From: a virus
DNA: 64,000 bases
Reading direction: 5' to 3' (one strand)
Virus record (IMG/VR): IMGVR_UViG_3300032323_001214
Location: 62,001 to 126,000 of that record
Under the pieces are notes generated by a model. The model was not told the origin of the DNA, searched no databases, and saw only the letters and a program-made list of their open reading frames with translations. The position numbers and the translations under genes are program-made. Of this stretch, positions 8,966 through 62,184 are shown piece by piece. How positions within the stretch are numbered: the stretch's first letter is position 1; the number at the start of each line of letters is the position of its first letter.

Positions 8966-8998
8966 CATAACTGGGTAAAATTTGGTGATTTTTATAGC

Positions 8999-9006
8999 GA
9001 TAAATA
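8999..9006 (+). promoter_or_regulatory. Late promoter GATAAATA
   Basis: Octamer one base from T4 TATAAATA. Expected transcription start about 9012, giving a 15-base leader containing AAAGG before the ATG at 9027. It faces away from the sigma70-like promoter of gp55. Confidence 0.7.
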
Positions 9007-9026
9007 TATTTAGTAAAGGTATAATC

Positions 9027-44995: not shown

Positions 44996-45312
44996 TAATT
45001 TGGGAAGCTCCTCCTATTGTCAAGCCTGAATTCAGGTTATACTATGACGATAAAGGTAATGTTTTATTTTATACCTGTGATAAACCCGAAGGTAATTATT
45101 TAGTCATTGACGCCCCTACATTTGCTGCCGGAAGACCTGATATTAGAGTAATTGATGGTAGGATATCCACTGTCGTTGTTAGTGCAGTTGTTAGTAAAAT
45201 TATGCCAAACACCGACGGTGTAAGTTGCGCAGAAGAAGATGTTAGTATCGTGGTTGACGCAACCTATGTAGGTAATACTATTAAATGGAAAACAGTAACA
45301 TATGAACTCTGA
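44983..45312 (+). CDS. Small beta-rich protein of unknown function
   Basis: 109 aa, mostly beta strands by composition, with IIWEAPPIVKPEFRLYYDD and VVVSAVVSKIMPNTDG. It overlaps the genes on both sides (13 and 11 bases), so it belongs to the array. No family recognised. Such proteins also occur next to fibre genes and could be a chaperone or structural piece. Confidence 0.6.
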   Translation: MEHVIIWEAPPIVKPEFRLYYDDKGNVLFYTCDKPEGNYLVIDAPTFAAGRPDIRVIDGRISTVVVSAVVSKIMPNTDGVSCAEEDVSIVVDATYVGNTIKWKTVTYEL

Positions 45313-46255
45313 AGATATTATTGATGTTGCAGATTTAGACTGCATCTATCTAAGTTATGATGAACCACAGAAAGAAGAATTCTGGCTCAAGATTAAAAAC
45401 ATGGTGCCTTGGGCAAAACGTGTTGATGGGGTAAAAGGAAGTGATGCGGCACACAAAGCCGCCGGCGCCGCAAGCGATACTGAACGTTTTATTCTAATCG
45501 ACGGCGACAACATGCCAGAAGAAAGTTTCTTTAATATTCAATTAGATTTTACGGGTAAAGACGAGTCATTTAAACGAGCGCAATTTCGTTGGAAAGCCAT
45601 CAATAATATTAACGGGCTGAGATATGGTAATGGCGGAATGAGTTCTTGGACTAAAGAATATGTCGCCAACATGAAAACACATGAACATCAAAAAGACGGC
45701 GATGTGTCACGTATTGCTGATTTTTGTATGGGCGGAGATGATAATTTATATTGGGCCATGTGGGACTGTTATTCAACTACATATCCAAACATGACACCAT
45801 TTCAAGCATGGCGTGCAGGATTCCGTGAGGGTGTCAAAATGAGTTTAGATAGAGGAGCTCGCCCCACAGTAGATCAATTCAAAGAAACAGTAGCAAGTCG
45901 TAACTTAGATAACTTAACAATATGGCATAATGTTGGTGCAGATGTTGAAAACGGAGAGTGGGCTATATATGGCGCACGACTTGGCACGTACATGACCATG
46001 CTCACAGAATGGGATCATTCAAACGTTCAATGGTTTGATAATTATATTATATTGTGGGAAGAACATGTGAACAGAAATCCTGTGCGTGAGTCAGTATTAT
46101 TGGGTGACGCATTACAGGACAAACTAGGACTACCAATGTGTACATTAGACAGTGTACAAAGTAAATTCTTTAAACGCCATTATGGTGCAGACAAATATAA
46201 CCGAGGACCTCTTGTAACCGAGATGGAAGTTGTTCGACAGATTCAGGGTTGGTAA
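45302..46255 (+). CDS. Glycosyltransferase-like protein (third, unrelated to the previous two)
   Basis: 317 aa. AKRVDGVKGSDAAHKAAGAA precedes TERFILIDGDNMPEE, with DGD at 67-69 as the probable DxD metal/sugar-nucleotide site. YGNGGMSSWTK near residue 105 resembles the glycine-rich acceptor loop of galactosyltransferase-like GT-A proteins. The C-terminal part (FMGGDDNLYWAMWDCY and later) is not recognised. It ends with TAATG overlap onto the first radical SAM gene, suggesting the two act in one pathway. Confidence 0.55.
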   Translation: MNSEDIIDVADLDCIYLSYDEPQKEEFWLKIKNMVPWAKRVDGVKGSDAAHKAAGAASDTERFILIDGDNMPEESFFNIQLDFTGKDESFKRAQFRWKAINNINGLRYGNGGMSSWTKEYVANMKTHEHQKDGDVSRIADFCMGGDDNLYWAMWDCYSTTYPNMTPFQAWRAGFREGVKMSLDRGARPTVDQFKETVASRNLDNLTIWHNVGADVENGEWAIYGARLGTYMTMLTEWDHSNVQWFDNYIILWEEHVNRNPVRESVLLGDALQDKLGLPMCTLDSVQSKFFKRHYGADKYNRGPLVTEMEVVRQIQGW

Positions 46256-47820
46256 TGAGCGGAGAATACGACCAATTTGCTAGGGATATGCGTGACCGCT
46301 TGAATGCGGTCAGTCCATCTCTGTGTCTTGCTAAGTGGCAACAAGTTTCTATTCACTTACCTAGTGGATTGACACAAAGTTGCTACCATCCACCTACACA
46401 TAAAATACCCTTAGATTTATTAAAAGATAATCCTAGCGTACTACACAACACTCCTATTAAGATACATGAGCGCAAACAAATGCTTGAAGGTGTAAGACCT
46501 GAGGGCTGTAGCTATTGTTGGAAAGTAGAAGATGCCAAAAGTGATGATCCTAAAGGTCACATGAGTGACAGACATTATCGTAGTAGTGAATGGTGGAATG
46601 CACCCACGTTTGACGAAGTTACTACAAACAGTTTTGATTATGATGTTATACCGCGGTATGTAGAAGTCAACTTCAATCAAGCATGTAACTTCAAATGTAT
46701 GTACTGTAGCCCTCACCTATCCACTAGTTGGGAAGAAGAAGTTAAAAAGCACGGTGGCTATAAATTAGCACACATGACACATAACAATTTGCAGTCACTT
46801 GAAGAAAAAGGATTAATGCCACTTAAAGTAGCAAATAGAGACAATCCTTATGTTGAAGCATTTTGGCAATGGTTCCCTGAAATCTACCGTAAACTACGTG
46901 TGTTCAGAATGACCGGCGGCGAACCGCTTATGGACAAGAACACATTCAAAGTGTTAGACTATGTGAATGAAAATCCTCATGGTCAGCTTGAGTTATCTAT
47001 AACAAGCAACATGTGTCCTCCGGATCAGAAGTTGTTTGATACTTTCTTAACTAAAGTAAAAGCAATTGAAGAATTACGTACCTACGAAGATAAAGAAAAT
47101 TTCAACGAACACTCAGGCAACCATTGGTATGTAGATAAAGGATTCAAACATTTTTGGTTATTCGTATCATTAGATGGTTTTGGTAAACAAGCGGAATATA
47201 TGCGTACTGGATTAGAGTTTGAACGTATGCTCAACAACGTTCGCACATTCTTGCGTGAAACAAAGTACTCTACTGTGAGTTTCATTAATACGTTCAACAT
47301 TCTGAGTATTCCAAGTCTACATAATTTCCTAGCTATGATCTTAGAATTACGTGCTGAGTTTGGTGGAAGAAGTCAAGTTGAATTTGAGATTGCACCAGAA
47401 CAAACTGAAACAGAAAAAGAACAAAATATTGTCCATAAAGTTTACACACAAAAGAAGTTTCAGCGTGTATTCTTTGACATTCCTATTCTACGTTATCCAC
47501 CGTGGTTCAGTATTCAAAATGCAGGAGAATATGGGATTACCGAAGTAGAACGTTGTCTGAAATATATGGAAGATAATGTACAAGATGGTGATTATTTAGA
47601 GACATTTGAAGGTTTTAAACCATATGAGATATTGAAAATAAAAAGAGATTTGGCTATTATGAAAGAATCTCTACCAGTAGAACAGTTGCAACTAAATAAA
47701 AAGAACTTCTACATGTTCATCACAGAATATGATAGACGCAGACAAACTAATTTTATAGAAACTTTCCCAGAACTAAAAATGTACTGGAGAGAGTGTATCA
47801 AAGCACATACCAAACATTAA
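46255..47820 (+). CDS. Radical SAM protein 1, with N-terminal Cys-rich (twitch-like) domain; type A
   Basis: 521 aa. Start set at the ATG overlapping the previous stop (TAATG). The N-terminal domain has four cysteines (C24, C43, C85, C88 in GCSYCWK) that probably bind an auxiliary iron-sulfur cluster. The radical SAM site CNFKCMYC is at 144-151, followed by the GGEP motif in MTGGEPLMDK. The C-terminus ends with YDRRRQTNFIETFPEL, shared with its relatives. The order N-terminal cluster domain then radical SAM core matches the 'twitch domain-containing radical SAM' proteins of environmental phages. Reaction and substrate are unknown. Confidence 0.8.
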   Translation: MSGEYDQFARDMRDRLNAVSPSLCLAKWQQVSIHLPSGLTQSCYHPPTHKIPLDLLKDNPSVLHNTPIKIHERKQMLEGVRPEGCSYCWKVEDAKSDDPKGHMSDRHYRSSEWWNAPTFDEVTTNSFDYDVIPRYVEVNFNQACNFKCMYCSPHLSTSWEEEVKKHGGYKLAHMTHNNLQSLEEKGLMPLKVANRDNPYVEAFWQWFPEIYRKLRVFRMTGGEPLMDKNTFKVLDYVNENPHGQLELSITSNMCPPDQKLFDTFLTKVKAIEELRTYEDKENFNEHSGNHWYVDKGFKHFWLFVSLDGFGKQAEYMRTGLEFERMLNNVRTFLRETKYSTVSFINTFNILSIPSLHNFLAMILELRAEFGGRSQVEFEIAPEQTETEKEQNIVHKVYTQKKFQRVFFDIPILRYPPWFSIQNAGEYGITEVERCLKYMEDNVQDGDYLETFEGFKPYEILKIKRDLAIMKESLPVEQLQLNKKNFYMFITEYDRRRQTNFIETFPELKMYWRECIKAHTKH

Positions 47821-47829
47821 GGAAAATAA

Positions 47830-49362
47830 ATGGCAGGAAAAAAACACGAAGAATCGTTTGCACAATATAAAGCAAGATTGATTGACCCAATTAGCGATAG
47901 CTATTGCGCGGCTAAATGGCTTAATGCAACAATCTGGCTGGGTAACGGACAAACAACTAGTTGTCACCATCCACTGGGTCATCAAATCGATGCAGGAGAA
48001 TTGCAAACTAATCCATCAGCTATTCATAACACACCACATAAGAAATATATGCGTAAGTTGATGCAAGAGGGTAAACGACCACAAGAGTGTGAATACTGTT
48101 GGAAGATTGAAGATATAGGTCGTGATAACATGAGTGACCGTGTTTACAAAACTGCCGTATTTGAAGAATCAGATATTCTACACACTGCTAAAGCAGATTG
48201 GCAAGAGAATACAATGTTAAAAACATTGGAAATCAGTTTTGACCGAACATGTAACTTTGCTTGTAGTTATTGCAATCCAAGTTTCAGTACAACATGGGTC
48301 AAAGATATTCATAAATTTGGACCTTATCGCAATATTGACGGTGATGCACGTAGTCACTTTATCAACGAAGCCGACCATGCAAAACCATTACCCGATGATG
48401 TTAACCCATATAGTCAAGCGTTTTGGCGCTGGTGGGAACAAGAAAACGGTCTGGCAGACAACCTAGAAGAAATCAGAATCACAGGTGGAGAACCACTTAT
48501 GGCACCTGGTGTTTGGAAGTTGTTTGAGTGGTTCAAAGATAACCAGGAACGGGTGAAGAATCGCAAAGATGGTAAGGTTATGCGTTATGCAATTAACAGC
48601 AATCTGGTTCCCAAAGATGATATTATGGACAGACTAATTGAATTGAGTCACTATGTTCCTCATTTAGAAGTTTATACTAGTTGCGAAGCATTTGGTTCTC
48701 ATGCAGAATATATTCGTGATGGATTCGTTTGGAGCAAATGGAAAGCTAACTTAACACGATTGCACACTGAAGGTAATATTAAAAAGACTCATATGATGAT
48801 GACCATCAATAGTTTATGTCTAGCTAGCATTACTGAGTTCATGGATGAAATGATGGCTTTCAAGAAAACTCATGACACTGTTTACCCCACTATGAGTTTG
48901 AATATTTTACGTTTCCCTAGTTTCCAAAGTTGTGCTATGTTACCAACAGAGATTCGTCAAAAGTATAAAGACAAATTACAAGTTTGGTTAGATCAACAAA
49001 TTGCTATGGATTTGCAAACATCTGATGGTAAACAAATGCTAATGAGTATTGAACGTGAGCAAACACAACGGTTAATTGATTACCTTGACGTTGTTAAAAC
49101 ACCACACAAGAATGTCAAAGACATTGAACAAAACCGTCGTGACTTCAAACAGTTCTATGCTCAGTATGATGTCCGTCGTGGTAAGAGTTTCCGTGATACG
49201 TTTCCTTCAGAGTTTGTCGCTTTCTATGATAGTATTCAAACTGATTTACCAACAGCAGAGGAAATTATTACACAAAATTATCGTGCAGGAGTTGATTTGA
49301 TCCCAGATCATCCACCGGAAGATCCAAGCAAAGATGTGTTTGTCAACCCTGATTTACAATGA
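47830..49362 (+). CDS. Radical SAM protein 2, N-terminal Cys-rich domain; type A
   Basis: 510 aa. Auxiliary cysteines C26, C45, C87 and C90 (ECEYCWK), CNFACSYC at 141-148, ITGGEPLMAPG, and a C-terminal YDVRRGKSFRDTFP segment. It is a close paralogue of protein 1, showing the same WLNATIWL / SCHHPLGHQ / IHNTPHKK layout. AAGGAAAATAA precedes the ATG, one of three non-overlapping junctions. Its last 40 residues extend past the shared motif. Confidence 0.8.
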   Translation: MAGKKHEESFAQYKARLIDPISDSYCAAKWLNATIWLGNGQTTSCHHPLGHQIDAGELQTNPSAIHNTPHKKYMRKLMQEGKRPQECEYCWKIEDIGRDNMSDRVYKTAVFEESDILHTAKADWQENTMLKTLEISFDRTCNFACSYCNPSFSTTWVKDIHKFGPYRNIDGDARSHFINEADHAKPLPDDVNPYSQAFWRWWEQENGLADNLEEIRITGGEPLMAPGVWKLFEWFKDNQERVKNRKDGKVMRYAINSNLVPKDDIMDRLIELSHYVPHLEVYTSCEAFGSHAEYIRDGFVWSKWKANLTRLHTEGNIKKTHMMMTINSLCLASITEFMDEMMAFKKTHDTVYPTMSLNILRFPSFQSCAMLPTEIRQKYKDKLQVWLDQQIAMDLQTSDGKQMLMSIEREQTQRLIDYLDVVKTPHKNVKDIEQNRRDFKQFYAQYDVRRGKSFRDTFPSEFVAFYDSIQTDLPTAEEIITQNYRAGVDLIPDHPPEDPSKDVFVNPDLQ

Positions 49363-50750
49363 CAAACAAAATAATTCCTATATGGGAACATGCAAAGCCC
49401 CATAAAGATAGTAAGAACAAGGTGTTTTGCATGGCACCTTGGACTCACACTTACATAAGTCCTCAAAGCGAACGCAGATTATGCTGTGCTAGTAGAGAGG
49501 AACATTCGTTCCAGAAACAATATATTGACAGTAGCAACGATAGTAAGTATGGAGAAGTCAAAGAATCAAAAACTGCATTAGATGACTATAAACCGGTTAG
49601 TTTAAAAGAACACTGGAATAGTGAATACATGAAAGATATTCGTGTAAAACTAATGCGCGGCGAAGAGATTCCGCAGTGTGATGTATGTAACAAAAATCTA
49701 TTGATGGAAGGACACAGCTATCGCGGCTGGTTTACTGGTTCTTTGTTTCATGACAAGATACAAGAAGCATTTGACAAGACAGACGACACTGGTTACACTA
49801 CAATGGAACCGATCTCGTTTGATTATAGATTCAGTAACCTATGTAATTTTAAATGTCGCATGTGCGGAGAACAACTAAGTTCAACATGGGAGACTGAAAA
49901 GAAAATTCACAATATGTGGGACGAGAAAAATCAACCTTTCATGGTTCCTGAAATTAAATCTGCTATGCAAAACTTTCAGCAGACAGTAGTTGAACCAGAA
50001 TTCCGTGATGCAGTAAGTCGTGGTATTGTAGAAGAAATGTATTGGGTTGGTGGTGAACCATTAATGTATGATGTACATTGGTGGACATTAGAAGAAATGT
50101 TGCGCAACGGTAGTAATAAAAAATGCTATATGCGTTACAATAGTAATTTAAGCCGTGTTCAATTTGGTGACAAAAATTTATATGATTATCTTCCATTGTA
50201 CAAAGACTGGATGATGTGTGCTAGTATTGATGGTACAGGTGAAATTGTCGAATACATTCGCACGGGTATCAAGTGGGACAAGTGGTTAGAGAATTTTAAG
50301 AAAGGTCTTGAGTTACCAAATGGTAAAGATAAGATGGTTCTTGATTTGACATTGACTGCACCCGGTATGTTCAGTTTAAAAGAACTATTTGATTTAAGCA
50401 TTGAGTTGGATGTTAAAATTGAGACTAAAACCACATTCGGTTTTCATCCTGATATAATGTGGACACCTCTTAGCTGGCCCCGTGAAATATTAGATGAAGT
50501 TGTTGACGATATACTTGAATATATTCGACCTCGTGTTACATGGAAACAACATACTTTAGTTGGTAATTTAGAAGCATTAAAGAATACTCGCAAGACTCAT
50601 GCAGAGGAATGGCCTGATACTTATAAGCAAGCTGCAAAAAACGGTAAGGGCTGGGTCGAGAGACTTGAACAAATACGAGGTGGTCCTACTACACTGCGTG
50701 GCATTTATAGTCGTAATTCAAAATTATTAGAATGGTGGGACAACATATGA
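49359..50750 (+). CDS. Radical SAM protein 3, N-terminal Cys-rich domain; type B
   Basis: 463 aa. The N-terminal domain uses C24 (FCMAPW), the paired C42-C43 (LCC) and C107/C110 (CDVC), with an insertion (about 46-100) before the last pair. The radical SAM motif CNFKCRMC is at 162-169; WVGGEPLMYD follows. Lacks the YDxRR tail of type A. Starts at ATGA overlap with protein 2. Confidence 0.8.
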   Translation: MTNKIIPIWEHAKPHKDSKNKVFCMAPWTHTYISPQSERRLCCASREEHSFQKQYIDSSNDSKYGEVKESKTALDDYKPVSLKEHWNSEYMKDIRVKLMRGEEIPQCDVCNKNLLMEGHSYRGWFTGSLFHDKIQEAFDKTDDTGYTTMEPISFDYRFSNLCNFKCRMCGEQLSSTWETEKKIHNMWDEKNQPFMVPEIKSAMQNFQQTVVEPEFRDAVSRGIVEEMYWVGGEPLMYDVHWWTLEEMLRNGSNKKCYMRYNSNLSRVQFGDKNLYDYLPLYKDWMMCASIDGTGEIVEYIRTGIKWDKWLENFKKGLELPNGKDKMVLDLTLTAPGMFSLKELFDLSIELDVKIETKTTFGFHPDIMWTPLSWPREILDEVVDDILEYIRPRVTWKQHTLVGNLEALKNTRKTHAEEWPDTYKQAAKNGKGWVERLEQIRGGPTTLRGIYSRNSKLLEWWDNI

Positions 50751-51925
50751 GTAAAACAATGTGTGTGCTACCTTGGATGCATTTAGCTACGCACCCTAAT
50801 GGTGGTGCAAGTCTCTGTTGCCGCAGTAATCATACAAATGCTATAAGCTGGGCAAAGAAAGCGGAAACTAATAGTATAGTCACATTAGATAATGACAACA
50901 TTATTGACATTATGAACAGTAATACCTTCGTCAAAGTCAGACAAGATATGATAGATGGTAGACGTCCTATCGAATGTGAAGGTTGCTGGAAAGATGAAGA
51001 TAGTGGTCTAAAAAGTAAACGTCAATATGAGAATGAGCGTTGGGCACACATTATCCCCAAACTTGAACAAACGGCAAAGCTTAATGATATCAACTTAATA
51101 TATGTAGAACTACGTTTGGGTAATGTGTGTAACAATGCTTGCTTAACTTGCAACAGTTATAGCAGTACTAAATGGTATCCTGATGAGAAGAAAATTGCCA
51201 ATGACTTACCTTGGTTTCAATTAAGACCAATGGAAAATTTCAAATGGTTTGAGAATGATGAGTTCTATTTAGAATTAGCAAACAAAAGTCGAGAAGTAGA
51301 AGAAATCTATATCAATGGAGGCGAACCTACGTTGATTAAGGCTCACTTTGAATACTTGAAGCACTTGATTACATTAGGTACAGCACAAAACGTACACTTG
51401 GTTTACAGTTTGAACATGTTGGATATACCTGACAATCTAATTGAATTATGGAAAAGTTTCAAACAAGTCACGGTAAATGCAAGTATTGATGATTTAGGTG
51501 AGCGTAACTATTATATTCGTTATCCTACTAAGTGGGAAGAGACAATTGCAAGTATTGAAAAATTAACTAAGTTACCAAACTTAAATTGGCATGTAACACA
51601 AACTGTTAGTATACTCAACATTTACCATTTAGCAGAGTTTGGTAATTGGTTAGAAACTAATTACAACAAAACACCTCACCATAATTATGTAATCTACCCA
51701 GACTATTTAAGTTTAGCAACATTGCCCGATTTTTATAAAGAAGAATTGCGTAGTCATTATGCAAGTAGACTACCTGAATGGCAACGCAAAGATTTATTTA
51801 ATAAACTACATGAGCCCTATCAACCAGACTTGCTAAAAAAAGCAAAAGAGTTTATAATAGCAGTTGATAAAGCACGTGGACTAGATTATAAAAACTACAT
51901 TCCAGAATTAAAAGATATACTATGA
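50747..51925 (+). CDS. Radical SAM protein 4, N-terminal Cys-rich domain; type B
   Basis: 392 aa from the ATG at 50747, which overlaps the previous stop (ATGA); an in-frame ATG 15 bases upstream is less likely. Cysteines C6, C24-C25 and C77/C80 (CEGCWK), then CNNACLTC at 128-135 and INGGEPTLIK. The C-terminus ends YIPELKDIL. This is the shortest N-terminal lead of the family. Confidence 0.8.
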   Translation: MSKTMCVLPWMHLATHPNGGASLCCRSNHTNAISWAKKAETNSIVTLDNDNIIDIMNSNTFVKVRQDMIDGRRPIECEGCWKDEDSGLKSKRQYENERWAHIIPKLEQTAKLNDINLIYVELRLGNVCNNACLTCNSYSSTKWYPDEKKIANDLPWFQLRPMENFKWFENDEFYLELANKSREVEEIYINGGEPTLIKAHFEYLKHLITLGTAQNVHLVYSLNMLDIPDNLIELWKSFKQVTVNASIDDLGERNYYIRYPTKWEETIASIEKLTKLPNLNWHVTQTVSILNIYHLAEFGNWLETNYNKTPHHNYVIYPDYLSLATLPDFYKEELRSHYASRLPEWQRKDLFNKLHEPYQPDLLKKAKEFIIAVDKARGLDYKNYIPELKDIL

Positions 51926-53208
51926 TACCAATTATACCAGACAAAATTAAAGACTCATTCTGTTCAGCTAAGTGGCTGATGGCTACTATGCACTTTGGTA
52001 TGGGGGAAAACCACAGTTGTTATCATCCACCTATTCATCGTTGGAACTTAGAAGATGTTAAGCGTGATCCTAGTATGCTTCATAACACACAGCACAAGAT
52101 TGAACAGCGTAGACAGATGATGAATGGCGAGAAGCCAAAAGAATGTTACTATTGCTTTGACATGGAGGCAATCAATCCTAATGTTATTAGTGATAGAAAA
52201 CGTTTCACAAACGAATCATACGCTATTGAACGCAGACAAGAATTGATTGATGCACCATATGATAAACATGTGAATCCAAGTTATTTGGAGTTAAGCTTCA
52301 GTAATGTATGTAACTTTGGTTGCAGTTATTGTAGTCCTGGTCAATCTAGTAAATGGGAGAATGAAGTTAGAAAGTATGGTAGCTACCCAGTAGTCGATCC
52401 TACAGTACATGCAGACAAACTGCATGACATGATTCCGGAAGATGATAACCCATACATTGATGCATTTTGGAAGTGGTTACCTGACGCCTATAAAGATTTG
52501 AAGTATCTACGTATTACAGGTGGTGAACCATTGGCTACTCGCAACTTCATGAAACTATTAGACTTTGTAGCACAAAATCATAACCCTAATTTAACACTAG
52601 TTGTCAATACTAACCTATGTGTACCTGACAAAAACTTGAATATGTTCTTTGAGAAAGCAACAACACTACTAAACGCCAAGACTATTAAAGGTCTAGAAGT
52701 GTACACTAGCATGGATACATGGGGCCCTCAAGCAGAATACATACGTGATGGTTTAGATACCGCACGGTGGGAACAAACTGTACGTAAAATAAGTACAACT
52801 TTTAATGTGCCAATTCGTGTTATGGTCACGTTTGGTTTAATGAGCATTTTTAACTTTCAAACATTTGTTGAGAAGATTATACAAATGCGTAATGAGGGCA
52901 TCGATATTATGTTTAATTGTGCCAGACTAGTAGATCCAAAACAATTTGATTTGCGCATTCTTCCGGATAGCGTAGACCAGTATTTTACAAAGACAAACAC
53001 GTTTATTGTTGACAACGGGCAAGTTGTTAATGTCGAACGTGAAACTTGGGCTATGGTCTATGACTTTTGGAAAGCACGTAAAAGTACAATGACTGAGGAA
53101 GATAGAGACTGGCGCAGAGATCAGTTTGCTAAATTTACAGATGAGTATGATAAGCGTAGGGGTAAAAATTTTAAATCTAATTTCCCGGAGTTGTCAACAT
53201 GGATTTAA
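51922..53208 (+). CDS. Radical SAM protein 5, N-terminal Cys-rich domain; type A
   Basis: 428 aa. C14, C33, C75 and C78 (CYYCFD) in the N-terminal domain; CNFGCSYC at 130-137; ITGGEPLATR; and a C-terminal YDKRRGKNFKSNFPEL tail like proteins 1 and 2. The segment YIDAFWKWLPDAYKDLKYLR matches the YVEAFWQWFPEIYRKLRVFR of protein 1, so these derive from recent duplication. ATGA overlap with protein 4. Confidence 0.8.
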   Translation: MIPIIPDKIKDSFCSAKWLMATMHFGMGENHSCYHPPIHRWNLEDVKRDPSMLHNTQHKIEQRRQMMNGEKPKECYYCFDMEAINPNVISDRKRFTNESYAIERRQELIDAPYDKHVNPSYLELSFSNVCNFGCSYCSPGQSSKWENEVRKYGSYPVVDPTVHADKLHDMIPEDDNPYIDAFWKWLPDAYKDLKYLRITGGEPLATRNFMKLLDFVAQNHNPNLTLVVNTNLCVPDKNLNMFFEKATTLLNAKTIKGLEVYTSMDTWGPQAEYIRDGLDTARWEQTVRKISTTFNVPIRVMVTFGLMSIFNFQTFVEKIIQMRNEGIDIMFNCARLVDPKQFDLRILPDSVDQYFTKTNTFIVDNGQVVNVERETWAMVYDFWKARKSTMTEEDRDWRRDQFAKFTDEYDKRRGKNFKSNFPELSTWI

Positions 53209-54362
53209 CACCATATAAAAACTGTTTGGCATTAACAAACAGTATTTTTATTGCCAACGAAGAAAAACCATATCGACCATGTTGTTGGTTTAAAACCTAT
53301 ATTGATGCTACTGATATCACTGATTATAATAATCAACTAGCAGAAATGGATTTGGAATATAATTGTGATTATTGTATTCAACAAGATAAGGGAGGGGGAT
53401 ACAGTTATAGACAAAAATTTATACATGCGGATGAGTTGACAATCACAGCATCGTTTGACAATTTATGTAATTTAAAATGTGTTACCTGTACACCTCACAA
53501 TAGCACACAAATTCTTGCAGAAAAAATAAAGCACGAAACTACATATACTAGTAAATATTTTGCCGAAATTGTCACTAAGCAAGCACCAAAAAAGATAGAT
53601 TTTATTAAAACAATGCTGAATAGTTCGTCATTCAATGACTTACGATTTGATATATTAGGTGGTGAACCATTAATCAATCCTGCTATCTTTGAATTTATTG
53701 ATTGGCTAGCAGAACAACCATATGCTAAAAAAACATCTCTTACTATCACTACAAACGGTACAACATATACAGATAAGATAGTAAAATATATTGACAGTTT
53801 TAAAACTGTTGGAGTGCAATTAAGTATTGATGGTATCGGAGATGAATTTGAATATCTTAGATTTGGTTCTTCTTTTGAAAAACTAGAAAATGTATGCGAT
53901 TCGTTCCATGCACTAACAGATAAGTACACCAACTTTCGTATGGGATGCCATTATACATTGTCCTGGATGAATTGCTTACAATTTGATGAATTTTTTAATT
54001 GGATGCAAACCAGATATCCCAATGTAACAGATATGTATATCAGTAAATTACAGTCACCTAATCAATATTCTATTGAATTACTATCCTTAGCAATGCGGAC
54101 TAAAGTTTATAACGAAGTTATAACTCACTTAAAAAATCCAATGAATGAGGTATATGAAAAGGCCTTGTTCCTGTACAAAGAACACATGTTAACTACTGCG
54201 TATGATAAATTTGATTTAGAACTGTTTAAGCATGGTATTAATACATTATGTGTATCGGATGGTATACGAGGAAATGACCATAGAAAAATTATAAAAAAGT
54301 TTGTTAAGTTCTTGTCATTATACATGCTTCATCCTCATTTGAAGTATATCAATAAAATATAA
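53199..54362 (+). CDS. Radical SAM protein 6, short N-terminal Cys-rich domain; divergent type B
   Basis: 387 aa. Cysteines C9, C28-C29 and C56/C59 (CDYCIQ) lie closer together than in the other members; CNLKCVTC at 90-97; ILGGEPLINP; then ITTNGTTYTDK and LSIDGIGDEFEYLRFG, which fit the later strands of a radical SAM barrel. Overlaps protein 5 by ten bases. It lacks the FPEL-type C-terminal motif. Confidence 0.8.
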   Translation: MDLTPYKNCLALTNSIFIANEEKPYRPCCWFKTYIDATDITDYNNQLAEMDLEYNCDYCIQQDKGGGYSYRQKFIHADELTITASFDNLCNLKCVTCTPHNSTQILAEKIKHETTYTSKYFAEIVTKQAPKKIDFIKTMLNSSSFNDLRFDILGGEPLINPAIFEFIDWLAEQPYAKKTSLTITTNGTTYTDKIVKYIDSFKTVGVQLSIDGIGDEFEYLRFGSSFEKLENVCDSFHALTDKYTNFRMGCHYTLSWMNCLQFDEFFNWMQTRYPNVTDMYISKLQSPNQYSIELLSLAMRTKVYNEVITHLKNPMNEVYEKALFLYKEHMLTTAYDKFDLELFKHGINTLCVSDGIRGNDHRKIIKKFVKFLSLYMLHPHLKYINKI

Positions 54363-54370
54363 AGGTTGTT

Positions 54371-55687
54371 ATGTTGGATAGAAAAATAGAAGATTTACCA
54401 AAAAATTTTTGTAGTGTTGCTTGGTTGCAAATACATACTGAACCTGATGGCAAAGTATTCCCCTGTTGTTATTACAGTCATAAACGTGAACATGATTTAG
54501 GTAATTGGAATCAAGAAAAGATTGGTGATATCTTTCATAATGACAAGTGGAATAATCTTAGAAAAGAGTTTCTAGATGGTAAACGTCCAGATGCATGTGC
54601 TAGATGCTGGAAAGAAGAAGATGCTGGTATTGTTAGTATGCGTAATCGTTTTAATGAACGATATGCCAATTTTCCCGACTACACAAATCAAAATAGCTAT
54701 AATAAATTCAAAGACATTATTAGTTTAAGCAATGAAGATGGCTCAGTTGATGAGGATATAAAATTAGCCACAGTTGATTTGATATTCAACAACTTATGCA
54801 ATATGAAATGTAGGACATGCGGATCAGGACTAAGTACAGCATGGATACCGGATCAAATCAAATTAGGTAGATCAAACAAACCAATATCATTATTGACTAA
54901 TGAAACTATTACTCACATGAAAGATGATTTGGTTGCACTTGTAAACATGGTAGATCCATACACCGAGATACACTTTAGTGGTGGTGAACCCATGATGCAA
55001 GAAGATCATTATTTGTTCCTGCAATTATTATTAGATATGGGTAAGACTAAAGTTAAAATTCGGTACAATACAAATCTAACAACGTACACATTGAAAGATT
55101 ACCATGCATTTGAAATGTTAAGGCATTTTGATTGTGTGTTTATTGTAGGAAGTATTGATGCAATGGGTGCGCAAGGTGAATATATCCGTAAAGGTTTTAA
55201 CTGGGAACATGCGCTTGAGTGGATAAAAACTTGTAAAGAATACTTACCCAATGCTGATTACGGAATCAGTGCTGTATTTGAATTACTGAATGCTTCCGCT
55301 TCAGTTGACTTACATCGTTACATGTGCGAAAATGATTTATTCAAACGTAGTAATGGTTCAAACTTTGGGTTTTATTTAAACACATTGCATGAGCCCGGTT
55401 GGTTAAAAACGACATTGTTGCCACCTGAGGTTAAATTAGAAGTTACTGAAAAAATTAATAAACATATAGCCTGGTTATCAGAAACACAAGAGCATGATAT
55501 GCACTATGATGTATATGTGGATCACTGGAAAAATGCAATCACACTAATGAACGGTGCAGACCATTCTAATTTCATACCTAATTTTTATTATGAAACTAGA
55601 CTATTAGATAAGATTCGTGATGAAAAGTTTGAAGAAGTGTTCCCTGAACTACATGAAAAGATGAAGAAATATGACAAACAAATTTAA
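54371..55687 (+). CDS. Radical SAM protein 7, N-terminal Cys-rich domain; type B
   Basis: 438 aa. C14, C32-C33 and C76/C79 (CARCWK), CNMKCRTC at 143-150, FSGGEPMMQE, and a C-terminal LDKIRDEKFEEVFPEL segment. Preceded by AAAGG and an eight-base gap. The 'EPDGKVFPCC' stretch is like SPASM-type ends, but at the N-terminus. Overlaps the next gene by 17 bases. Confidence 0.8.
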   Translation: MLDRKIEDLPKNFCSVAWLQIHTEPDGKVFPCCYYSHKREHDLGNWNQEKIGDIFHNDKWNNLRKEFLDGKRPDACARCWKEEDAGIVSMRNRFNERYANFPDYTNQNSYNKFKDIISLSNEDGSVDEDIKLATVDLIFNNLCNMKCRTCGSGLSTAWIPDQIKLGRSNKPISLLTNETITHMKDDLVALVNMVDPYTEIHFSGGEPMMQEDHYLFLQLLLDMGKTKVKIRYNTNLTTYTLKDYHAFEMLRHFDCVFIVGSIDAMGAQGEYIRKGFNWEHALEWIKTCKEYLPNADYGISAVFELLNASASVDLHRYMCENDLFKRSNGSNFGFYLNTLHEPGWLKTTLLPPEVKLEVTEKINKHIAWLSETQEHDMHYDVYVDHWKNAITLMNGADHSNFIPNFYYETRLLDKIRDEKFEEVFPELHEKMKKYDKQI

Positions 55688-56984
55688 TCCAGTCGAAATG
55701 GCTAAAAATAGTAAAACATTTTGCATCTTCCCATGGATACAACAATATGTAGGTCCGCCCGGTGACGTGAAACCGTGCTGTGTTTACGACAATCAAGCTG
55801 AGATTGGTAATTTAAAAGAAAATACGTTATCTGAAATTTGGAATAACGATAAGACTAAGCAAATGCGTTTGAATTTTCTTAACGGGGTTGAAGAACCCAG
55901 TTGTAGTATATGCAATCGCCGTGCAGCATTGGGTCATGCCCACAAGAATCAATATAATAAAATGTTCTTTGATCAGGATGAAGAAATTCAGAATATTGTC
56001 GCAAACACAAATCCAGACGGATCATTAGATGACCATAAGTTATATTACATTGACGTTAGGTTTAACAATCTATGTAATCTAAGTTGTCGTAGTTGTGCCC
56101 CTCACTTTAGTACTGGTTGGGTATTGGATCATAGAAAGCTGTATAACACAAAGCGTAAAAGAGATAAAGATGATGGATTTCAGTTTCCAGGTAAAACTGA
56201 AGGTCAAGCATTAGAAGAAATAATCCCACATCTAGCAACAGCAAAAATGATTTACTTTGCAGGTGGAGAACCATTAATTCAAAAAGAACATTACGAGGTT
56301 CTCGAAAAACTTATTGAATTTGGAAATACTGATTTAGAAATTCGCTATAACACAAACTTCAGCAATTTTAAACTGAAGAAATATGACAATATATTAGAGT
56401 ACTGGAAGAAGTTTAGCAACGTTCACGTATATGCTAGCTTGGATGGTAGTCATGAAAAGGGTGAATACTGGCGCAACGGTCTAGATTGGAAACAAGTCAT
56501 AGAGAATCGTAAACAAATGATGGAAGAATGTCCCCATGTTCATTTTATGATATCATATACACTAAGTTGGCCTAATGCACTAAACCTTGTAGAGTTTCAT
56601 AAAGAATGGGCAGAACTAGGATATTTAAAGCCAGAGAATATGTTAGTTAACCCATTAGATACACCACCTTACTATTGTTTAAAAAATATTCCAGATTGGA
56701 AGAAGCGTGAAATTGAAGAAGCGTTGCAAAAGAACATAAACTGGTTAAGATCAATTAACCCTGAATTTGCCATCATAACTCAGTACGAAACTGTAATTAA
56801 ATTTATGTGGGACAAAACTGGACAATACCATTCAGGTATAGATGAAAGCTTGAAAGAATTTAATAAGATTACTACTAAACTAGATGACATTCGTGATCAA
56901 AGTTTCTTTGATGTTTATCCCGAACACATGAATATCAAAAATTATTTAATTCATAACAATTTAAATATGGAGTTTAAGTACTGA
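55671..56984 (+). CDS. Radical SAM protein 8, N-terminal Cys-rich domain; type B
   Basis: 437 aa. C18, C36-C37 (KPCC) and C78/C81 (CSIC), CNLSCRSC at 135-142, FAGGEPLIQK. The C-terminal LDDIRDQSFFDVYPE parallels protein 7, so the pair looks like a tandem duplication. Its stop and the next start overlap by one base. Confidence 0.8.
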   Translation: MTNKFNPVEMAKNSKTFCIFPWIQQYVGPPGDVKPCCVYDNQAEIGNLKENTLSEIWNNDKTKQMRLNFLNGVEEPSCSICNRRAALGHAHKNQYNKMFFDQDEEIQNIVANTNPDGSLDDHKLYYIDVRFNNLCNLSCRSCAPHFSTGWVLDHRKLYNTKRKRDKDDGFQFPGKTEGQALEEIIPHLATAKMIYFAGGEPLIQKEHYEVLEKLIEFGNTDLEIRYNTNFSNFKLKKYDNILEYWKKFSNVHVYASLDGSHEKGEYWRNGLDWKQVIENRKQMMEECPHVHFMISYTLSWPNALNLVEFHKEWAELGYLKPENMLVNPLDTPPYYCLKNIPDWKKREIEEALQKNINWLRSINPEFAIITQYETVIKFMWDKTGQYHSGIDESLKEFNKITTKLDDIRDQSFFDVYPEHMNIKNYLIHNNLNMEFKY

Positions 56985-58237
56985 TGGACGAAAAGAAATT
57001 ATTTAAGATACGAGATGAAACAAGCAAAACTTTTTGTCTAGCAAAATTTCACGAAGCAAGTATCTGGGTGTACTCGGGTAAGATTGCTAGTTGCCACTAT
57101 ACCCCTTTCATTCAAGTAGGTAACACAGTAGATACATTTTATAACCCTGCAGAGAAGCGTGAACAACAAAAGCGTATGCTTGCAGGAGAACAACCGCCTG
57201 CATGTGATAGTTGCTGGCGCTATGAAAATCTAGGATTGCAAAGTGATAGGACACGTAAGAGTTTAAGTTTCACTGACCATTTAAACAAAGAAGATTATAA
57301 GAATCCTAACTATGTATTCAAGCCCAAAGCATTAGAACTAGCATTCCAGAATACATGTAACTTAGCTTGTAGCTATTGTAGCCCTCAATTTAGTACAAGC
57401 TGGATGAACGATATCAGAGTGAATGGTGTTTATCAAAGTATCATCACTGATGACCGCAGACACTATCAAAAAGATATCAACGAAATTAATGAGATGATTG
57501 ACCCTCCTGACATGACATTGTTCTGGGAGTGGTTCGAAAGTGTTGCTACTAGTTTAGAATCTATCCGGGTTTCAGGCGGAGAGCCATTAATGCATGAGGA
57601 AGTTTTTCGTGTGTTTGAAATGATGACAGAGATAAACCCAAACATTGAATGCGTTATACACAGCAACCTCTGTCAGAAGCCGGTAATCATGGATAGATTC
57701 TTTGATAAGATTAGTGGATTGTCTAATCTACGTATGAATATTAGTAATGAATCTGCAGGTGAGACTGCTGAATTTGTGCGTGAGGGTATGATATATTCTG
57801 AATGGTTAGAGAATATTGAACGATTAGCAAACAGTACAGTCAAAGAGTTTAGCATAAGCACAACTGTGAGTGCAATTGCACTGCAATCACTTGACCAAAT
57901 GTATTTGGACATTATTGATATACGCAATCGTTCTAAAGTAAAACCTTATATCTCTATCAATATGGTAGATAAACCAGATTTTCAAGGCTTTGCTTGCTTA
58001 ACACGTGCAGAGCGTGACTTCTATATCAATAAATATACTAAGTTTTACGATTCAATTAAAGATGAATTGTTATCGGTAGAGCATGAGCATTGCAATAGAT
58101 TATTAAAATTTTTAGATGAAGGTTTTATAAAAGAAACACAACCTGCCCTTCGTAAAGATAGTGACATGTTCTTTGAACAATACACTAAGCGTAGAAATAA
58201 ACCAGACAATTTAGCAAAATATATAGGATTAAAATAA
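56984..58237 (+). CDS. Radical SAM protein 9, N-terminal Cys-rich domain; type A
   Basis: 417 aa. C18 (FCLAKF), C37 (SCHY), C74/C77 (CDSCWR), CNLACSYC at 125-132, VSGGEPLMHE, and a degenerate C-terminal FEQYTKRRNKPDN tail. The 'AKF/ASIWVYSG' start and FWEWFESVATSLESIRVSGG segment relate it to proteins 1, 2 and 5. The start overlaps the previous stop by one base. Confidence 0.8.
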   Translation: MDEKKLFKIRDETSKTFCLAKFHEASIWVYSGKIASCHYTPFIQVGNTVDTFYNPAEKREQQKRMLAGEQPPACDSCWRYENLGLQSDRTRKSLSFTDHLNKEDYKNPNYVFKPKALELAFQNTCNLACSYCSPQFSTSWMNDIRVNGVYQSIITDDRRHYQKDINEINEMIDPPDMTLFWEWFESVATSLESIRVSGGEPLMHEEVFRVFEMMTEINPNIECVIHSNLCQKPVIMDRFFDKISGLSNLRMNISNESAGETAEFVREGMIYSEWLENIERLANSTVKEFSISTTVSAIALQSLDQMYLDIIDIRNRSKVKPYISINMVDKPDFQGFACLTRAERDFYINKYTKFYDSIKDELLSVEHEHCNRLLKFLDEGFIKETQPALRKDSDMFFEQYTKRRNKPDNLAKYIGLK

Positions 58238-59412
58238 TGGAAGAACAAATGTATGATATAGATTGTGTAAAAAGATTACACATTGAGTTATCAAGTAGAT
58301 GCAATGCTAGCTGTCCTGCATGTAGTAGAAACCACAGTGGCGGTCCAGTAGCAGAAGATTTGGAATTAACTGAATTATCAATTGGTGATATCAAACGTAT
58401 GGTTCCTGTAGAGATTGCAAGAAATATAAAAAGTATAAATTTTTGTGGTAATGTAGGCGATCCGGGTATGGCACCTGATCTACTAGAAATTATACAATAT
58501 TTCAGAGAACATTCACCTAAGGTTGTACAACAAATAAGAACAAACGGCGGGATGCGTAATCCAGAGTTCTGGACTAAATTAGGTAATTTCTTTGCAAGTC
58601 AAGCAGATCCTAAAAATAAGTTTTTGTTTAATCTAGCAGGAGTGGTATTCAGTGTCGACGGGTTAGAAGATACTAATCACATTTATCGTAGGGGCGTCAA
58701 GTGGGATAAACTGATAGCTAACATGAGAGCATACAGTGCCACAGGTGCATACGCTATATGGGAATGGTTAGTGTTTGAACATAACCAACATCAAATTGAA
58801 GAAGCTAAAGCACTTGCAAAAGAATTAAATTTTCAATTTGTTGTAAAAAATCCATTAGGTTTTGGTGAATATGATGGTAAAGCTAAAGGTTTATCAGTAT
58901 ATAACAAAGAGGGCGAATATGAATATTCTATTTGGCCTGCTAACCACACGGGCCCTAAATTAGGACCTAATTTTGGTCAGAAAGTAGATTTTACTAAGAT
59001 GGTTAAAACTATACCTATCATAAATGAGTTTAGTAAAGAATTAGAAAAAACATCTACAATAAAGTGTAAATCTATTGAGCGCCAAGAGTCACAAGAAGTG
59101 TACATTTCTGCTACAGGATATATGTTACCTTGTTGTTTTTTAGGAGGCGTGTTCGGTCAATTTAATTCTTCATACTCTAGATATCAATTTAACACAATGA
59201 TTAACGATTATGGATTGGATGTATTTAATTTAAATAAACGTTCGATGCTAGAGATAATTAAGGGTCCTGAATTTTCAAAATTCTTTTTAAATGGATGGAA
59301 AGCAGATACTATTGAAAATGGTAAATTATTATTTTGTTTGGAAACATGCGGGAATAAATCTGCTATGGATAATTTATATACTACTAAAACAATTACAAAG
59401 GAAGCACAATAA
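58237..59412 (+). CDS. Radical SAM protein 10 with C-terminal SPASM-like domain (no N-terminal domain)
   Basis: 391 aa and built differently from its neighbours. The radical SAM motif CNASCPAC is at residues 22-29, right at the N-terminus. The GGEP position is replaced by FCGNVGDPG. The C-terminal part has C277, the pair C299-C300 (MLPCC) and C367/C371 (CLETCG), the arrangement of a SPASM/twitch auxiliary-cluster domain. SPASM proteins include peptide-modifying enzymes, so this member could act on a protein or peptide. One-base overlaps on both sides place it within the same polycistron. Confidence 0.8.
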   Translation: MEEQMYDIDCVKRLHIELSSRCNASCPACSRNHSGGPVAEDLELTELSIGDIKRMVPVEIARNIKSINFCGNVGDPGMAPDLLEIIQYFREHSPKVVQQIRTNGGMRNPEFWTKLGNFFASQADPKNKFLFNLAGVVFSVDGLEDTNHIYRRGVKWDKLIANMRAYSATGAYAIWEWLVFEHNQHQIEEAKALAKELNFQFVVKNPLGFGEYDGKAKGLSVYNKEGEYEYSIWPANHTGPKLGPNFGQKVDFTKMVKTIPIINEFSKELEKTSTIKCKSIERQESQEVYISATGYMLPCCFLGGVFGQFNSSYSRYQFNTMINDYGLDVFNLNKRSMLEIIKGPEFSKFFLNGWKADTIENGKLLFCLETCGNKSAMDNLYTTKTITKEAQ

Positions 59413-60143
59413 TGAGAATAGGTGTATTTGGTGATAGTTTTGCGGATAGAACCGCCTACAATCCAGAGAGTAATATCACAGAAGATGAATCTTGGATTGC
59501 TGACATGGAGAATGCCGGTCATAAAATAACTACATATGGTAAAACTGGATCTTCTACTTGGTATTCCTTTCAACAATTTTTAGCTCACCATGAACAGTTT
59601 GACCATATTGTATTTTGCTACTCATCGTTGCATAGAATACATCACTTGCCAGAAGGTCTTGAAGATTTGAGTTTCTTAACAACACCGGATGAGTTGTATG
59701 CATTAAGAAGAAATAAAAATTTATCTAAACAACAAGAATTAGAAATGGTTAGAATATTAACTGGACATATCCCCAATATATCATCGCCGTTCGATGTTTG
59801 GGTAAAACAAAAAATATTTGATGATGTAAACTTATTGTGTTATAGTAATAATATCAAACTTGTAAATCTACTTACGTTCGATGATAGAAAAGATAAAAAT
59901 CTCAACATGTCCTTAGAATCAAGACACGGGGACTGTTTGTATAATTTGTTCAATGTAAGTAAGAAGGAATTACCATCGATGGGTGAAGTAGATAACAGAT
60001 GGTGTCATTTATCTAAAGAAAACAACACGATACTGTCCGGTATTATATTTGATTCACTAGTTAGTAACGATAAAAATATTATTGATTTGTATAAACACAA
60101 TGGATTTATATATAGTAAAGAAATTACTGCGAGATATGAATGA
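59412..60143 (+). CDS. SGNH/GDSL hydrolase-like protein 1
   Basis: 243 aa. Block I is IGVFGDSFAD (S9 as nucleophile), GKTGSSTWYS around residue 40 resembles the block II Gly region, and DNRWCHLSKENN near residue 200 could supply the Asp-His pair. The block III Asn is unclear (HIVFCYSS). SGNH proteins add or remove O-acyl groups on sugars. Cytoplasmic: no signal peptide. One-base overlap upstream, ATGA overlap downstream. Confidence 0.6.
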   Translation: MRIGVFGDSFADRTAYNPESNITEDESWIADMENAGHKITTYGKTGSSTWYSFQQFLAHHEQFDHIVFCYSSLHRIHHLPEGLEDLSFLTTPDELYALRRNKNLSKQQELEMVRILTGHIPNISSPFDVWVKQKIFDDVNLLCYSNNIKLVNLLTFDDRKDKNLNMSLESRHGDCLYNLFNVSKKELPSMGEVDNRWCHLSKENNTILSGIIFDSLVSNDKNIIDLYKHNGFIYSKEITARYE

Positions 60144-60889
60144 GCACAATTGGTAGAATAGTAATATTGGGAGATAGTTACACATTTGGTCATGGATGTT
60201 CAGATAGAGAATATTACTATGATCAAAAATTGCAAAGCTTTGTAGGTGATTATAAACCATTTGAAAACAGAATTCCTAGTAAGTTTTGCTGGGCAACATT
60301 ATTACAACAACAATATCCAAACATTGAAGTAGTTAATCTATCGGTACCCGGACATACTAGTCAGGGTATGTTTAGAGACTTGACAAACTATTACTATGAC
60401 AATGAATATTCACCTAATGATATGATAATGTTTAATGGAACATTCTCTAACAGAATCGAAATAGCATTGGGAGATAGTCCAGAAGTTACTGTCCCGTGGG
60501 TTATGGGATGGGATAAGCAATCATATGATGAAGGTAAAATGCAATATAATATTGCTAAAAAAATGTATATAACACATTTGTTCAATGATGATATAGGTTA
60601 TAATCTCTCAATTACCGGACTAATGGCAGCGTATGCATTTGCTCATTCACGCAACTTAAAATTCTTATGGAGTTTACCTACATATGACTATTCAGCTAAA
60701 GTATTACACAATATATTACCGTCGATGAAAAGCACTAATATTTCTGAGATAGTTAATTATGATTATTCAGGGAAACTGGATTTAAAATTTAATGAAACGT
60801 GTGTTGCATCTGATTTTCATATTAATGACAAGGGTCATGCTATATATTTTGAAAGAGAAATATTACCTGCGATACAACGCCTTCTATAA
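60140..60889 (+). CDS. SGNH/GDSL hydrolase-like protein 2
   Basis: 249 aa with clearer blocks: VILGDSYTFGHG (S13), VVNLSVPGHTSQGMFRD (Gly block), MIMFNGTFSNR (Asn block) and SDFHINDKGH (D225, H227 and H233 region). The middle is hydrophobic-poor and soluble. It is a relative of the proteins before it and after the peptide gene. Its stop codon lies inside an exact TATAAATA (60885-60892). Confidence 0.7.
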   Translation: MSTIGRIVILGDSYTFGHGCSDREYYYDQKLQSFVGDYKPFENRIPSKFCWATLLQQQYPNIEVVNLSVPGHTSQGMFRDLTNYYYDNEYSPNDMIMFNGTFSNRIEIALGDSPEVTVPWVMGWDKQSYDEGKMQYNIAKKMYITHLFNDDIGYNLSITGLMAAYAFAHSRNLKFLWSLPTYDYSAKVLHNILPSMKSTNISEIVNYDYSGKLDLKFNETCVASDFHINDKGHAIYFEREILPAIQRLL

Positions 60890-60892
60890 ATA
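60885..60892 (+). promoter_or_regulatory. TATAAATA octamer before radical SAM protein 11 (possible late promoter)
   Basis: Exact late octamer overlapping the stop codon of the SGNH gene. At T4 spacing, transcription would begin at about 60898, the next ATG itself, giving a leaderless message; no Shine-Dalgarno is visible. In AT-rich coding DNA a chance match is possible. Confidence 0.35.
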
Positions 60893-60897
60893 GCTTA

Positions 60898-62184
60898 ATG
60901 CAAAAAACTTTCCCTATACAAAATGACGCCGCCTGTTTATATAAATGGGCATGGAGCACAGTCTTCTTAAGCAGAGGAACTACTGCAAGTTGTCATCGTG
61001 GTTATCATTGGCGATTAAATGAAGATAACTTCATGGATTTTCACAATCATCCAGGTAAATTAAGTGACCGAGAGAAAATGGCTAACGGTGACTGGCCTAG
61101 TAATGGATGTGAGTACTGCCGCGATGTAGAAAAAGCCGGCGGGGTAAGTGATAGGGTAGGATTTGTCAATAATTCAATTGAATTACTTCCTCCTGAGATG
61201 AAAGATTTACAAGTTCGTGCATATGAGTATGACAACATTCCATTGAGTGTGAGTCCTACACTACTTGAAGTTTACTTCAATAACGTATGCAACCAATCAT
61301 GTGTTTATTGTACTCCGGGTTTTAGTAGTCAAATTGAACAAGAAGTTCGTAAGTATGGACCAATAGATTTTAACAAAGATTACAGTAACTGGCGCCCTGA
61401 TACAAAATATGAATTATATAAAGAGAAGTTTTGGGAGTGGATGGAAAAGCATTCTCATTCATTACAGATTCTTCAAGTATTAGGAGGTGAACCACTATAT
61501 CAAAAAGAGTTTGAACAATGTTTAGACTTCTTTGATAAAAATCCTAGACCTAATCTAATATATAGAACGTTTAGTAACTTAAAGCATGACCCTGCAAAGT
61601 TCAAGGAAAAGATACAACGTGTGCAAAATTTGATTGACCAGGGAAAATTAAAACAAATGGAATTTGTTTGTAGTATCGATTGCTGGGGACCTGAGATTGA
61701 ATATGTGCGTGATGGTTTGATATTAGAAGATTGGGAAAACAATATTGATACGTTAGTAGATACCCCCGGAGTGTCTATTAATATTCATGCTACTCTCACT
61801 GCATTGACACTACCTACTTTGTATCAATTGATTGAGAAAACTGTATCATGGCAACGTCCTGATAAGTATGTGGGTATAAATTGGAATACAGTAGTAAGTC
61901 CTACTCCGTTTAATCCATACCATTTTGGTGAGCATTTGTCCCCTTTTATTGATACAGCCATAGAAACATTACAAAAGTTTCCTGACTTTACGGAATCTAG
62001 TAATTTACAAAAACATCTGCACGGTATTAAACAGCAGTTGATAAGTACTCCTGTTAATAAAGCAGAAGTTGCTAATTTAGTAGGTTTTTTAGATGAAATA
62101 GATAGACGTAGAAATCGAAATTGGAGGAAGGTATTTCCACAAATCGAACAAATAGTAAATACTATTAACACAGGAGAATTATAA
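60898..62184 (+). CDS. Radical SAM protein 11, N-terminal Cys-rich domain; type A
   Basis: 428 aa. C13, C32 (SCHRGYHW), C71/C74 (GCEYCRD), CNQSCVYC at 131-138, VLGGEPLYQK and a C-terminal LDEIDRRRNRNWRKVFPQI tail. It is separated from the other ten by two SGNH genes, so the type A enzyme and SGNH steps are interleaved. No ribosome-binding site precedes its ATG. It ends in TAATG overlap with the small peptide gene. Confidence 0.8.
   Translation: MQKTFPIQNDAACLYKWAWSTVFLSRGTTASCHRGYHWRLNEDNFMDFHNHPGKLSDREKMANGDWPSNGCEYCRDVEKAGGVSDRVGFVNNSIELLPPEMKDLQVRAYEYDNIPLSVSPTLLEVYFNNVCNQSCVYCTPGFSSQIEQEVRKYGPIDFNKDYSNWRPDTKYELYKEKFWEWMEKHSHSLQILQVLGGEPLYQKEFEQCLDFFDKNPRPNLIYRTFSNLKHDPAKFKEKIQRVQNLIDQGKLKQMEFVCSIDCWGPEIEYVRDGLILEDWENNIDTLVDTPGVSINIHATLTALTLPTLYQLIEKTVSWQRPDKYVGINWNTVVSPTPFNPYHFGEHLSPFIDTAIETLQKFPDFTESSNLQKHLHGIKQQLISTPVNKAEVANLVGFLDEIDRRRNRNWRKVFPQIEQIVNTINTGEL

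Follow-up and report, generated by a model that had tools for sequence, protein, structure and literature searches.

The viral record IMGVR_UViG_3300032323_001214 of IMG/VR (249,606 bases) encodes eleven radical S-adenosylmethionine (rSAM) proteins in one array, and this array follows a cassette of putative fibre and glycosyltransferase (GT) genes to which related rSAM genes are linked, in a fixed order, across many phage lineages. We tentatively read the locus as an island by which the phage would assemble and tailor a glycan, the fibre being its likeliest acceptor. The window analysed here is the whole stretch of 64,000 nucleotides from position 62,001 to 126,000 of the record, and coordinates are those of the window unless given as record positions. 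The phage, large and uncultured, is T4-like: the record contains families for baseplate wedge, sheath, tube and DNA polymerase.

All eleven rSAM open reading frames (ORFs) are intact and lie on the plus strand between 46,255 and 62,184. An earlier note on this DNA, made from its letters, had described eleven CxxxCxxC genes on a single strand, most of them overlapping, and this description was borne out: neighbouring genes overlap at seven of the nine junctions from r01 to r10, and two SGNH genes lie between r10 and r11. The array holds every rSAM gene among the predicted ORFs of the record, which was examined as stretches from base 2001 onwards. The CX3CX2C motif occurs 11 times in these ORFs, always within an array gene, and a Pfam Radical_SAM search of the record returned the identical eleven places.

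Ten of the eleven proteins (r01 to r09 and r11) passed the cut-off of NF033640, the NCBIfam model N_Twi_rSAM for "twitch domain-containing radical SAM protein" (curated at 170 bits, whole-protein score), with 179 to 363 bits and nearly the whole model covered. The remaining protein, r10, reached 47 bits against this cut-off of 170; it matched Pfam SPASM with 27.4 bits (cut-off 21.5) over C-terminal residues 283-350 and Radical_SAM with a sub-threshold 22.6. These matches to family models confirm the earlier division into ten proteins with an N-terminal domain of four or five cysteines and one with a C-terminal SPASM-like domain. The array genes are as follows; GTx is the putative GT gene directly upstream of r01.

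46249-47820 (ATG at 46255), plus strand: r01, rSAM; orthologue of the GTx-adjacent gene in several other phage groups (NF033640 284 bits; tree)
47830-49362, plus strand: r02, rSAM; orthologues elsewhere mostly in second position (NF033640 298 bits; tree)
49359-50750, plus strand: r03, rSAM, five-cysteine type (NF033640 305 bits; N-terminal Pfam SPASM 26.6)
50732-51925, plus strand: r04, rSAM, five-cysteine type (NF033640 342 bits)
51922-53208, plus strand: r05, rSAM, four-cysteine type, modelled with AlphaFold2 (NF033640 291 bits; Foldseek SkfB, E 2.4e-6)
53199-54362, plus strand: r06, rSAM, five-cysteine type (NF033640 179 bits, barely above the cut-off)
54371-55687, plus strand: r07, rSAM, five-cysteine type (NF033640 330 bits; SPASM 45.8)
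55671-56984, plus strand: r08, rSAM, five-cysteine type (NF033640 363 bits)
56984-58237, plus strand: r09, rSAM, four-cysteine type (NF033640 240 bits)
58237-59412, plus strand: r10, rSAM of another type with a C-terminal SPASM domain (phrog_21308, E 2.5e-18; SPASM 27.4)
60898-62184, plus strand: r11, rSAM, four-cysteine type (NF033640 235 bits)

The N-terminal cysteines number four in r01, r02, r05, r09 and r11 and five, including a CC pair, in r03, r04, r06, r07 and r08. Together with the CX3CX2C motif they were invariant across orthologues (8-17 aligned sequences per gene), and the ten N-twitch proteins are predicted rSAM enzymes with an auxiliary-cluster cysteine set. Pairwise ratios of nonsynonymous to synonymous divergence (dN/dS) against orthologues were about 0.03-0.16 where dS could be estimated, values that are rough because many dS were near saturation; by this estimate the array genes are under purifying selection. 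The earlier note had left room for CxxxCxxC sites that are not followed by the usual barrel. In the one protein of the eleven that was modelled, r05, AlphaFold2 placed six barrel strands (pLDDT 94, pTM 0.91), and its top Foldseek matches in the PDB were rSAM enzymes, namely, SkfB, BlsE, viperin and MoaA, with SuiB and QueE also present. An A-type Fe-S carrier, detected with a profile built from the neighbours of related loci, is encoded at record positions 179813-180133. NF033640 is defined by sequence and no characterised member was found, so membership assigns no reaction.

The cassette upstream of the array consists of the following genes, in which fractions refer to 55 dereplicated locus groups.

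40262-40882, plus strand: fib206, conserved gene upstream of the fibre genes (phrog_11259, function unknown, E 1.1e-68; recurs upstream of FIB398)
40913-42109, plus strand: FIB398, putative fibre or virion structural protein (phrog_14394 virion structural protein, E 2.7e-10; 18/55)
42119-43072, plus strand: FIB, putative fibre protein of 317 amino acids (29/55, mostly adjoining P101 or GT-like genes)
43120-43425, plus strand: P101, small protein usually adjoining FIB, possible assembly factor or chaperone (27/55; alignment)
43422-44222, plus strand: GTa-1, putative GT (GTa-2 family, hidden Markov model 340 bits; weakly GT8-like)
44219-44995, plus strand: GTa-2, putative GT (glycogenin-2 profile match, E 0.38, weak and outranked by an unrelated chain)
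44983-45312, plus strand: p109, small protein of variable family and fixed position (p109, c327 or another small ORF stands between GTa and GTx)
45302-46255, plus strand: GTx, putative GT of GT-A fold and partner of the rSAM genes (AlphaFold2, Foldseek, linkage)

FIB matched nothing in Pfam or PHROG, so its fibre label comes from its position. A 6420-amino-acid ORF at 20835-40097 lies between the baseplate and fibre genes, and its first 1000 residues had no Pfam match. Sequence searches with GTx against the PDB and Pfam gave nothing significant. The AlphaFold2 model of GTx (pLDDT 85) was closest in Foldseek to the S-glycosyltransferase SunS (E 1.5e-4) and also matched the PBCV-1 capsid glycosyltransferase (E 1.2e-3), at low TM-scores of 0.2-0.34. 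SunS glycosylates a peptide. D67 and D69 of GTx, candidates for a DxD-type motif, are conserved, and the fold match is GT-A-like but of low TM-score. The matches of both GTx and GTa are weak, and "glycosyltransferase" is therefore a putative label for the two.

A scan with r05 returned 79 loci, comprising one clade with 9-13 rSAM genes (full-length stretches) and others with 1 to 10. The order across lineages was FIB398-FIB-P101-GTa-GTa-small gene-GTx-rSAM (1 to 13), and SGNH and carbamoyltransferase genes often came next. For a seed other than rSAM, scans were also performed with a single GTx and with a GTx alignment; the best-scoring 80 loci were taken from each, so the counts describe relatives of this GTx rather than all phages. 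Among the 153 GTx-seeded loci, GTa was found upstream in 153 and FIB or P101 in 150. Where at least 3 kb followed GTx (135 loci), an rSAM gene was the next gene in 86, lay within four genes in 45 and slightly further in 4, so that all 135 testable loci had rSAM downstream of GTx. The linkage to fibre genes just upstream, which the earlier note had drawn from this one stretch, thus holds across many phage lineages. That note had also held that single genes in unrelated contexts would speak against a joint role; singles do occur in distant relatives, but most stand behind the same fibre-GT-GTx cassette, with a fibre-less minority. The fibre-less phage context has the order MT205-rSAM-SGNH-carbamoyltransferase (L075, L077, L079, L085, L090, L092 and L100) and lies near a gene labelled CHASE-like by eye.

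The array order recurs in seven further IMG/VR contigs, as far as the stretch of each one reaches. The exceptions were a local exchange of r10 and SGNH1 in one contig (L016), the absence of SGNH1 in another (L011) and extra rSAM genes in some. An assembly artefact was rejected on the strength of these contigs, and a fusion of r01 with r02, seen as a 1035-amino-acid frame in one record, was rejected since the two are separate ORFs with a stop between them. Whole viral records held up to 17 NF033640 matches, and a 2017 report gives 12 rSAM genes for a T4-like ocean genome (PMC5332604); eleven is thus not exceptional, which weakens the earlier remark that clusters this large are unusual in a phage. 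The description of the operon as late-type fits its location, but no convincing late promoter was found for the array: the T4 late-promoter word TATAAATA was seen 4 times in the whole window against 10.6 expected, rarer than chance, and the copy near r11 is too close to the r11 start. Scans for sigma-70 promoters and terminators gave matches at chance level only.

Among 233 rSAM proteins placed in one tree, the clade of r01 comprised the GTx-adjacent gene of several other phage groups and that of r02 mostly second genes. Position labels changed 15 times on this tree versus 35-50 times in 500 within-locus shuffles, a comparison that is not a probability since the shuffles ignore relatedness among loci. 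By this phylogeny, the array consists of old subfamilies, each specific to a position, and not of recent copies, a pattern more in keeping with distinct steps than with genes lately duplicated for dosage.

Cellular relatives were found in Bdellovibrio-like bacteria. A single-sequence query with r08 found no close bacterial relatives, but a genome scan with an alignment query recovered NF033640 homologues in Bdellovibrio-like metagenome-assembled genomes (MAGs). Eight such genomes hold 1 to 20 matches each, and 14 of the 61 genomes of one family contain homologues. Contigs as long as 2.66 Mb carry some of the bacterial arrays, and a run of seven rSAM genes adjoins genes resembling ATP synthase subunits (by eye), which argues against phage contamination in those genomes. 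GTx pairs adjoin rSAM genes in several of these MAGs. Neighbours of the bacterial rSAM genes include a Wzm-type ABC exporter permease, a carbamoyltransferase, a GT and PqqD in some loci and GT2, a sugar-nucleotide dehydrogenase, a nucleoside triphosphate transferase and weak GDSL proteins in others; the remaining loci had no telling neighbours. In one Bdellovibrio MAG (L107:8701-13520) an 834-amino-acid double rSAM protein is encoded between two flagellin genes, and in a Bdellovibrionia MAG (L108, L141-L143; G025 contig 192) about 14 N-twitch rSAM genes lie on a single 56-kb contig. Judged by their gene neighbours, the bacterial contexts lean towards surface glycans, with protein modification also compatible, and they speak for a glycan no less strongly than for the fibre polypeptide.

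The genes that accompany and follow the array are listed here.

59412-60143, plus strand: SGNH-like protein 1, conserved in the array clade (no Pfam match; named from an N-terminal GDSF motif)
60140-60889, plus strand: SGNH/GDSL hydrolase 2 (Pfam Lipase_GDSL 25.7, cut-off 23.6)
62285-63133, plus strand: SGNH/GDSL-like protein 3, conserved (Pfam Lipase_GDSL 20.0, under the cut-off of 23.6)
63130-64000, plus strand, continuing past the window end (record 125130-126626): carbamoyltransferase (Pfam Carbam_trans_C 164.5, Carbam_trans_N 112.3)

The SGNH-like genes (59412-60889 and 62285-63133) diverge faster, at 35-86% identity, than most of the surrounding rSAM genes. Just beyond the window, record positions 126637-130569 encode a 1310-amino-acid protein with many FDFSWHPDPTDPPYIYVFGNQW-type repeats and a C-terminal GTx-like domain (134 bits); it had no PHROG match.

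In the glycan reading, the putative GTa-1, GTa-2 and GTx would transfer sugars, on which the N-twitch rSAM proteins would then perform radical chemistry, be it oxidation, epimerisation, deoxygenation or the formation of C-C or C-S linkages, and different rSAM genes may serve different steps. The earlier note's idea that the paralogues could act in series on one repeated substrate, for example a polymer or the fibre proteins, is conjectural. Acyl and carbamoyl groups would be attached or taken off by the SGNH proteins and the carbamoyltransferase. The best candidate for the acceptor is the fibre protein encoded directly upstream, so that the phage would present a decorated adhesin. We favour this reading because the linkage of rSAM, GTa and fibre genes held from a GTx seed independent of rSAM, and because GTx has a GT-A-like fold with matches that include SunS and the PBCV-1 capsid enzyme. 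It is also favoured by the position-specific subfamilies with their invariant ligands and low dN/dS, by the A-type Fe-S carrier of the phage, by the bacterial GTx pairs beside rSAM genes and the polysaccharide-type genes near bacterial rSAM genes, and by the bacterial rSAM gene between two flagellins; a Brachyspira plasmid offers a precedent (PMC4267127). Several observations weigh against it. In sequence, neither GTx nor GTa matches a known glycosyltransferase significantly, and the structural resemblance is weak (TM at most 0.34). The best structural match of r05, SkfB, is a peptide maturase. The cassette contains no dedicated sugar-nucleotide pathway; an epimerase/DegT-like pair and a GT2 gene lie further downstream in the record, some 10-20 kb from the array. 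Bacterial GTx and rSAM genes pair without fibre genes, so the fibre may be a mere site at which phages accumulate such genes. An NAD-epimerase gene followed by an aminotransferase-like gene (the latter by eye) lies at record positions 144379-146389; the pair is a possible sugar-nucleotide pathway for the glycosyltransferases.

In a different account, the rSAM proteins would modify the fibre, or P101 or p109, directly in the manner of maturases of ribosomally synthesised and post-translationally modified peptides (RiPPs), with cross-links, epimerisation or side-chain methylation that stiffens or protects the adhesin. The fixed adjacency of FIB and P101 suits this account, as do the closest solved structure to r05, the RiPP maturase SkfB, with SuiB also among the matches, and the PqqD-domain proteins in related bacterial loci. 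The bacterial homologue between flagellin genes suits it as well, given that flagellin is modified by the [4Fe-4S] methylase FliB (PMC8598068). The phage proteins share with the RiPP rSAM/SPASM maturases SkfB and SuiB a barrel fold and an extra Fe-S domain, but the auxiliary domain of the N-twitch proteins is N-terminal, and TM-scores were 0.37-0.41. No PqqD or RiPP recognition element was matched by Pfam in the phage rSAM proteins, P101 or p109, and no precursor-like short peptide was noticed among ORFs of at least 60 amino acids. GT-like genes are present in every GTx locus, and bacterial GTx and rSAM loci occur without a fibre. We consider direct modification of the fibre rather unlikely.

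Remodelling of the host envelope during infection would give the glycan another destination. The island would then alter O-antigen or capsule, for example to block superinfection, and its placement in a host-recognition region would be incidental. Pelagimyophage clusters with fibres, GT8 glycosyltransferases and rSAM cassettes were read by their authors as modifying the host O-chain (PMC7029224), and bacterial homologues lie near surface-polysaccharide genes. Vibrio phage K566 has rSAM genes near a PagP lipid A gene. However, fibre-P101-GTa-GTa-small gene-GTx-rSAM is the same order from lineage to lineage, more fixed than a loose moron would lead one to expect, and exporter or ligase genes were not noticed in the phage locus; envelope remodelling is unlikely. 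Other products, such as a modified nucleotide or DNA base, a lipid or a small metabolite, are improbable: unusual proteins at the left end of the record and viperin and QueE among the structural neighbours of r05 hint at them, but the genes to which the array is tied are fibre and GT-like genes, not replication genes, and the neighbours of a generic barrel assign no substrate. The left-end set (record 3383-9934) is an unusual accessory group of fatty-acid desaturase, Rieske, ATP-grasp and PP-loop proteins.

Cultured phages searched by tblastn with r05, GTx, GTa-2 and FIB yielded no close relatives, and with r08 the matches were confined to distant genes of Vibrio phages and of one marine single-cell viral contig. 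Vibrio phage K566 (OZ196521; L009, 146584-177585) has four related rSAM genes, of which the one that was scored passes NF033640 with 202 bits; nicotinamide genes lie nearby along with PagP. The plasmids searched gave three weak matches only.

A broader proposal, which we regard as doubtful, is that these loci form a widespread and undescribed phage system. GTx and a growing series of position-specific rSAM enzymes would give the tail fibre a radical-tailored glycan or a cross-linked polypeptide as decoration; enzyme number (1 to 13 or more) would set the complexity of the product, and predatory bacteria would hold a cellular counterpart. If so, phage adhesins would be built with oxygen-sensitive radical chemistry, and loci with 1 to 13 or more enzymes would offer a natural series on the evolution of complex modifications. 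N-twitch rSAM enzymes would also gain a first testable role, and the poorly annotated GTx family would be tied to them in phages and predatory bacteria.

Three elements are already known: the N_Twi_rSAM family, T4-like phages with large rSAM sets, and host-recognition islands with rSAM cassettes. The fixed fibre-GT-GTx-rSAM locus, the GTx partnership and the Bdellovibrio counterpart were not found described in open-access full texts, which omit most subscription papers. The 36-kb plasmid of Brachyspira hyodysenteriae, for which a glycosylation function was predicted, resembles the locus in having several rSAM genes alongside glycosyltransferase and rfb (rhamnose) genes; it differs in being a bacterial plasmid and is likened here from the literature alone. 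The pelagimyophage host-recognition clusters likewise unite fibres, glycosyltransferases and rSAM cassettes in a single variable island; they are defined by VrlC and gp14 flanks, and the available part of their description mentions the cassettes without a conserved GTx-rSAM order. For the ocean genome TARA_ERS488813_N000010, the accessible part of the published description gives no gene order, fibre/GT cassette or function. Likened by that description only, it is T4-like as the present record is, has about as many rSAM genes and also encodes an A-type Fe-S carrier.

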